A DNA stretch of 64,000 bases from Deltaproteobacteria bacterium (GTDB lineage Bacteria; Myxococcota_A; UBA9160; UBA6930). Position numbers and translations under genes: made by a program. Location: assembly GCA_016875395.1 (NCBI GenBank), contig VGRF01000007.1, positions 62,001 to 126,000 of the forward strand, read 5' to 3'. This document shows, piece after piece, positions 50,554-51,940 of this stretch. A model generated the notes under the pieces. That model was not told where the DNA came from and ran no database searches. It saw only the letters and a program-made list of their open reading frames with translations. Numbering within the stretch: the first letter of the stretch is position 1; every line of letters starts with the position of its first letter.

Positions 50554-51228
50554 ATGCCGCGCGCCGCGCTTCGCGAGAAAGCTGCCCGCATCCAGCACGT
50601 GCTCGATGCGCTCTACCCCGCGGCGCCGATTCCGCTCGAGCACGAGGATCCGTTTCAGCTGCTCGTCGCGGTCGTGCTCTCGGCGCAGTGCACCGACGCG
50701 CGCGTCAACCTCGTGACGCCCGCGCTCTTCGCCGAGGCGCCGAATGCTCCGGCGCTCGCGCAGCTCCCGGCTCCGCGCATCCTGCGCCTGATTCGCACCT
50801 GCGGCCTCGCGCCGACGAAGGCGCGCAATCTGAAGGCGCTCGCGCAGCGACTCGTCGCCGAGCACGGCGGCGCGGTGCCGAAGACGTTCGCGGAGCTCGA
50901 GGCGCTGCCCGGCGTCGGGCACAAGACCGCGAGCGTCGTGCTCTCCCAGGGCTTCGGGATTCCTGCCTTCGCGGTCGACACGCACATCCACCGGCTCGCC
51001 ACGCGCTGGGGATTGACGAGCGGGCGCAACGTGGCGGAGACCGAGCGCGACCTGAAGAGGCTGTTCGCGGAAGAGAGCTGGGGCCGCGTGCATCTCCAGA
51101 TCATCTACTTCGGCCGCGAGCACTGCCCCGCGCTGCGCCACGATGCGAGCGCGTGCCCGATCTGCGCGTGGGCTGCGGTGAAGCGGCGCGCACGCGTTAC
51201 CGTGAATCGCGCGCGCAAACGCGCCTAA
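50554..51228 (+). CDS. nth: Endonuclease III (DNA glycosylase/AP lyase), altered iron-sulfur loop
   Basis: A 224-residue HhH-GPD protein from ATG 50554. The helix-hairpin-helix LEALPGVGHKTASVVL contains the catalytic Lys, and FAVDTHIHRLATRWG the catalytic Asp. It removes oxidised pyrimidines. The C-terminal loop reads HCPALRHDASACPICAW: three Cys in C-x9-C-x2-C spacing, rather than the four-Cys C-x6-C-x2-C-x5-C cluster. The iron-sulfur cluster may be lost or changed. The stop TAA lies in a CCTAACAA motif and is 18 bases from the TGA-containing gene. Confidence 0.88.
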   Translation: MPRAALREKAARIQHVLDALYPAAPIPLEHEDPFQLLVAVVLSAQCTDARVNLVTPALFAEAPNAPALAQLPAPRILRLIRTCGLAPTKARNLKALAQRLVAEHGGAVPKTFAELEALPGVGHKTASVVLSQGFGIPAFAVDTHIHRLATRWGLTSGRNVAETERDLKRLFAEESWGRVHLQIIYFGREHCPALRHDASACPICAWAAVKRRARVTVNRARKRA

Positions 51229-51246
51229 CAAGTCGAGGAGACCGCG

Positions 51247-51588
51247 ATGCCGAAGAAGGTCGAGTGGTACTACCACCGCATCGGTTGAACGAGCTGCACG
51301 CGAGCGTCCAAGTTCATGGACGCCAAGAAGGTCGAGCCCGCCGAGACGGTGAGCGCGTCGAAGAAGCTCTCGCGCAAGGACGCGGAGGAGATCGCAAAGA
51401 GCGCGAGCCGCGTGGTGGTGGCGAATGGCAAGAAGGTCGAGGAGTTCGAGACCGCCGGACGCGCCGCGAAGGCGGTCGTCGACGCGATGCTCGGGCCGAC
51501 TGGGAATCTGCGGGCGCCGGTGGTGCGATCGGGGAAGACGGTGCTCGTCGGGTTCAACGACGAGGCTTGGACGAAGAACTTGGCGTGA
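51247..51588 (+). CDS. Putative ArsC/Spx-like selenoprotein with in-frame TGA (Sec14)
   Basis: A 113-residue frame from ATG 51247, with GAGGAG upstream. Codon 14 is TGA (51286-51288), in Y-Y-H-R-I-G-[TGA]-T-S-C; read as selenocysteine it gives U-x-x-C. The region after it looks like an ArsC/Spx-type thioredoxin fold: KAVVDAMLGPTGNLRAPVV followed by LVGFNDEAW. Starting instead at internal ATG 51316 gives 90 residues, loses the first beta strand and redox motif, and has no ribosome-binding site. A SECIS-like hairpin is at 51304-51323. It follows nth closely and is probably co-transcribed. No selA/B/C/D lies in the window. Confidence 0.75.
51304..51323 (+). promoter_or_regulatory. Candidate bacterial SECIS hairpin
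   Basis: GCGTCCA (51304-51310) pairs perfectly with TGGACGC (51317-51323) around the loop AGTTCA. The loop starts 22 bases after TGA 51286-51288, within the 16-37 base window reported for bacterial SECIS elements. It has a G among its first two bases, as required, with GU at loop positions 2-3, as in the E. coli fdhF loop. Confidence 0.7.
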
Positions 51589-51940
51589 GGCCTTGGTTCG
51601 TTCTCGTTCGTGACTCCGAGCGCGCGCGGGCGCCGGGGGCGGAGGGTCGCGACTCCGGCCCTTCGCTTGGTTGGTGTGCGCCTTTGGGTGTCGCGAACGC
51701 GCTGCTCCTGGGCGCGCTTTAGCGCCCACGCCGCTGGCAGATGACGCGAGGCGCGCCGACATGGTTGCGAAGGACCGGGCCTTCGCTGCGACGCCCGTCC
51801 GCCCCCCGGCGCCCGCGCGCGCTCTCGTGCTGGATTCGTCGCGGCTCGCGCCGGTTTGGGAGGAGTTGGCGCGGCTCGGGCCGCATCGAGCGGCCCGAGC
51901 CGCGCTCTCCTGAATTGCCGAGATCGCTGCGGTCGAGTTG
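51589..51940. other. Intergenic spacer with dispersed repeat
   Basis: About 350 bases without a convincing gene, between the putative selenoprotein and the methyltransferase stop codon. It contains the second copy of the ~175-base dispersed repeat and little else that I can recognise. Confidence 0.55.
51633..51806 (+). repeat. Dispersed ~175-base repeat, copy B
   Basis: This is the partner of 13260-13436 in inverted orientation, 38 kb away. An 80-codon open frame (51671-51913) inside it shares its N-terminal pattern (CRERAAPGRA, RRAD/RRAG, TPVRP) with the copy-A translation. It does not look like a known protein. Confidence 0.75.

Follow-up and report, generated by a model that had tools for sequence, protein, structure and literature searches.

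A probable selenocysteine-containing oxidoreductase of the ArsC/Spx branch in a deltaproteobacterial genome

Introduction

A TGA triplet within an otherwise open frame may end a gene or encode selenocysteine (Sec). Which of the two applies, and what kind of protein results, is the question raised by a locus in the 64,000-nucleotide stretch of deltaproteobacterial DNA analysed here (the window; features are listed in Table 1). In our reading the gene encodes, with a probability of about 0.95, a small thiol-selenol oxidoreductase that belongs to the ArsC/Spx branch of thioredoxin-fold proteins and in which UGA is decoded as Sec; the protein is probably cytosolic.

Table 1. Positions of the gene and its features in the window
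Feature	Position	Strand	Remarks
Shine-Dalgarno-like GAGGAG	51235..51240	+	Direct reading; precedes ATG 51247
ArsC/Spx-like selenoprotein gene (predicted)	51247..51588	+	113 residues, Sec as residue 14; full-length homologue alignment
In-frame TGA, codon 14	51286..51288	+	U14 of U-T-S-C; TGA in relatives
Cys17, partner thiol in UxxC	51295..51297	+	Column invariant in alignment A1
Bacterial SECIS hairpin (putative)	51304..51323	+	Stem 51304-51310/51317-51323, loop AGTTCA 51311-51316
90-codon frame expected from a conventional gene caller	51316..51588	+	ATG at stem-loop edge
Terminal stop of the selenoprotein gene	TGA 51586-51588	+	

Results

The gene and its hairpin in the window

A preliminary description made from the sequence alone had reported the start codon with its GAGGAG site, the TGA at codon 14 and the frame open to the terminal stop, and direct reading of the window bore out all of these; the shortened frame of 90 codons that an ordinary annotator was predicted to call is likewise present. 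Read with Sec, the product of 113 residues begins MPKKVEWYYHRIGUTSCTRASKFMDAKK... The hairpin, too, exists as described, with an exact stem of 7 bp (GCGTCCA/TGGACGC) that starts 15 bases downstream of the TGA and a distance of 22 bases from the TGA to the loop, and ViennaRNA folds exactly 51304-51323 at -11.7 kcal/mol. According to a published model, bacterial SECIS elements have a loop of 3-9 nt with G in its first two bases, a stem of 4-16 bp, a distance of 16-37 nt from the UGA, and a minimum free energy of -7.5 kcal/mol or lower (PMC13188914). The hairpin found here, with its 6-nt loop AGUUCA, 7 bp, 22 nt and -11.7 kcal/mol, lies within all of these bounds.

The preliminary description had also taken hairpin and spacing as evidence, and this part needs correction, as such arrangements are by themselves common in GC-rich DNA of this kind. 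The SECIS constraints are fitted by 231 of 400 sampled TGAs of the window (58%), and at least 99 open codons follow 233 of its 1074 TGAs in all six frames. All 68 family members fit the published criteria, yet so do 38% of synonymous shuffles, and we rejected these criteria as evidence because they are too permissive. Synonymous re-coding of this single gene gave P = 0.088 for the retention of all 7 pairs, and a search of 51000-51800 against Rfam with an E limit of 10 returned chance matches only and no bacterial SECIS family. Given how frequent hairpins and open frames are in the window, the case has to rest on relatives.

The Sec codon across relatives

The family was found above cut-off in 77 of 379 genomes drawn from the phylum, and in 76 of these 77 the gene carries one in-frame TGA. 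The motif could be read in 69 loci, 68 of which have TGA and one (L039) TGC. A second scan, of GTDB species genomes and with a single relative (L022) as query, yielded 43 loci, some of them from genomes already in the phylum sample, whose titles name Deltaproteobacteria/Myxococcota, Planctomycetota, Acidobacteria, Krumholzibacteria and others; TGA occupies the Sec position in all 39 readable loci from these several phyla. The homologue comparison that had been suggested as a check came out in favour of the gene as first described: the reading frames of homologues begin before the TGA and include the first strand, and residue 14 is TGA nearly throughout, with Cys in L039. Judged from these sequences, members of the family clearly carry Sec as a rule, and the in-frame TGA almost certainly encodes selenocysteine.

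Several loci depart from the common pattern. The Cys form at L039 1989-2324 reads RSCETC, with TGC at the Sec position, and its genome still has selA. In genomes G006 and G350 the N-terminal part of the gene (L045 and L047, respectively) is missing or out of frame, perhaps owing to frameshifts in draft contigs or to gene decay. Genome G227 (87% complete) has two Sec-encoding copies on different contigs (L031 1489-1827 and L062 1989-2327), which may stem from duplication or from a mixture of strains.

Conservation of the hairpin

The hairpin was compared in 50 close relatives with Ala-Ser at codons 6-7 after the TGA. All 7 pairs are kept in 49 of the 50, far more than chance would give, since shuffling of synonymous codons at the pooled codon usage predicts about 4; these relatives are akin to each other, so that they do not represent 50 independent events. 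The pair formed by two third-codon positions is G-C in 39 cases, G-T in 6, A-T in 3 and C-G in 1, with one mismatch, so that this wobble-wobble pair shows compensatory changes (G-C to A-T and to C-G). The Ser codon of the stem is TCC in 50 of 50 sequences, whereas elsewhere in the same genes TCC accounts for 48 of 253 Ser codons, and the fifth codon of the stem-loop, where it encodes Leu, is always CTG or TTG. More distant members keep a hairpin in a slightly different register. These observations show that an RNA structure is under selection in addition to the protein.

Decoding machinery

The genes selA, selB, selD and that for tRNA-Sec, whose presence had been proposed as a further check, were all found in the host genome (96% complete). 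The first three score 514.9, 282 and 261.7 bits, respectively, each over its curated cut-off; the tRNA-Sec lies at C4:178685-178779 (71.3 bits) and is classified by ARAGORN as SeC with anticodon tca and a long variable arm. Among the 379 genomes, selA occurs in 75 of the 76 with a TGA-bearing gene and in 165 of the 303 without (Fisher P 3e-16, not corrected for relatedness). In genome G187 (85% complete), which carries the gene, no selA was detected.

Family membership

The Sec-read protein matches NCBIfam NF041106 (ArsC_rel_Se_1, 'ArsC family (seleno)protein') over residues 5-107 with 109.9 bits (E 8.9e-32), above the curated cut-off of 85 bits, and has the U/C-x-x-C motif of that family, with TGA at codon 14 and an invariant C17. 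Pfam ArsC is slightly below its cut-off (23 vs 24), and TIGR00014 arsC (cut-off 106.05 bits) gave no match within an E limit of 1. A selenoprotein group with a UxxC motif was described in 2008 by the GOS survey as 'Arsenate reductase 2' (cd03032, 42 sequences; PMC2398784); reviews citing that survey list an 'Arsenate reductase-like protein' with UxxC (PMC9312934), for which NF041106 is given (PMC13188914). We take the identity of 'Arsenate reductase 2' with NF041106 from these reviews, not from a sequence comparison of our own. Since the family is in the catalogues already, the protein studied here is an ordinary new member: the selenoprotein and its likeness to ArsC and Spx stand as first proposed, and the family itself is not new.

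Four genomes of the phylum contain a FYGR-x-U-TGC subfamily (L040 1962-2297, L041 1983-2321, L042 1986-2327 and L043 1983-2309) with in-frame TGA and hairpin. The two members tested score 60-69 bits, below the NF041106 cut-off of 85, and the subfamily may be a sister selenoprotein family that is not yet listed.

Fold and active site

The AlphaFold2 model (mean pLDDT 88.6) has its best solved matches among ArsC-related and Spx proteins (Z 9.4-8 at about 2.5-3 A over 85-87 residues); those with Z 9.4-8.9 at 2.5-2.7 A are Spx, YffB, SACOL0876 and an ArsC-related protein. Foldseek TM-scores were only about 0.55. When the structure list was realigned, ArsC-related and Spx proteins came first and glutaredoxins close behind, E. 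coli ArsC also being placed below, and a profile search retrieved the same families as the structure matches (E about 2e-9). In the predicted structure U14 lies directly before helix 1 (15-26), which is the place of the nucleophile in thioredoxin-fold proteins. Alignment A1 (39 sequences) is invariant at C/U14, C17, G61, G83, G86, R89, A90, P91 and G102. The invariant C17 and the profile and fold matches uphold the U-x-x-C motif and the ArsC/Spx likeness noted at the outset, and an ArsC/Spx thioredoxin fold with U14-x-x-C17 is predicted.

Genomic context

Immediately upstream, the window carries nth (endonuclease III), an arrangement shared by only two loci of the same taxonomic family (L035 and L075). 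When flanking genes were compared across loci no neighbour recurred widely; where flanking ORFs form large clusters, these consist for the most part of antisense or out-of-frame readings around the selenoprotein gene itself. Thus, the gene seems to stand alone, and we rejected gene neighbours as a clue to function, as no conserved one helps.

Discussion

A raw-sequence reading has caught a true selenoprotein where a standard gene caller would report a frame of 90 residues that misses the active site. Decoding of UGA at codon 14 would be carried out by SelB and tRNA-Sec under the direction of the downstream hairpin. Fold and motif suggest that U14, placed where helix 1 starts, is the attacking nucleophile and forms a selenenylsulfide with Cys17, and that the oxidised protein may be recycled by glutathione/glutaredoxin or by thioredoxin. 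We infer a redox function from the motif and the predicted fold, and as candidate substrates a small oxidant, a disulfide or a protein in S-glutathionylated form are more likely than arsenate.

Among other functions that such a protein could have, that of an Spx-like regulator which binds RNA polymerase and senses the redox state through U14-C17 is improbable to our minds, even though Spx ranks among the top matches by fold and by profile and carries CxxC at the corresponding site: the score to TIGR01617 (Spx/MgsR) is 23.9 bits, where the cut-off is 75.05, and our protein, with 113 residues vs about 131, lacks the tail that Spx has at its C-terminus.

Still less credible is the view that the protein truly serves as an arsenate reductase, with Sec in place of the catalytic Cys of ArsC. 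Fold and sequence are those of the ArsC family by profile and structure matches, the name in the literature is 'arsenate reductase-like', and in an alignment with an ordinary glutaredoxin-type ArsC encoded in the same genome (L079 1468-1830, contig C11) U14 falls on the catalytic Cys. However, this separate enzyme already provides the genome with an ArsC (TIGR00014, 106.9 vs cut-off 106.05 bits), and the two proteins differ in sequence: L079 reads NPRCSKSR...LLERPVLV...GRPPE and the selenoprotein UTSC...LRAPVV...GFNDE. Where L079 has Arg in front of the cis-Pro (ERP), the family has Ala (RAP, with A90 and P91 both invariant in A1), and GRPPE is replaced by GFNDE. Arg residues of this kind bind arsenate in E. 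coli ArsC. As no recurring neighbour genes were found, there is no ars context either. The selenoprotein is probably not an arsenate reductase, and the missing arsenate-site Arg suggests that this name is misleading.

If the TGA simply ended translation, as a normal stop or through a nonsense mutation, it would leave a pseudogene or the 90-codon frame that a gene caller would output, in a window where TGAs are commonly followed by hairpins and long open frames. This reading is refuted by the relatives and hardly deserves further thought: TGA stands at the same codon in several phyla, between two stretches of conserved protein sequence and ahead of a conserved hairpin, and the 90-codon frame has neither strand 1 nor the active site and starts with a Met for which most relatives have Leu.

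The oxidoreductase reading leaves room for a broader proposal to which we give even odds, namely that NF041106 is a functional class apart from arsenate reductase and Spx, comprising stand-alone Sec-dependent oxidoreductases or redox sensors. The class would be marked by the signature U14-x-x-C17, G61, G83, G86, R89-A90-P91 and G102 and by a substrate not yet recognised, and would have retained Sec in Myxococcota, Planctomycetota and their neighbours. Nearly all selenoprotein families of this kind are still uncharacterised (PMC13188914), and NF041106 is a case in point, being widespread, nearly always Sec-keeping and functionally uncharacterised.

With glutaredoxin-dependent ArsC (TIGR00014) the selenoprotein shares the fold and the position of the catalytic residue; by contrast, it has a second active-site thiol, Cys17, and lacks the arsenate-site Arg residues. 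Spx, YffB and the ArsC-related proteins (TIGR01617, cd03032) have the same fold, CxxC position and C-terminal 'RP...VG(F/Y)' pattern; our protein differs from them by Ala instead of Arg before the cis-Pro, by Sec instead of Cys and by the lack of the Spx tail. Compared with NF041106, it has Ile at residue 12 where most relatives have Lys, with nothing else of note to set it apart; it matches the family over its full length, carries Sec in the same UxxC motif and has the hairpin after the Sec codon.
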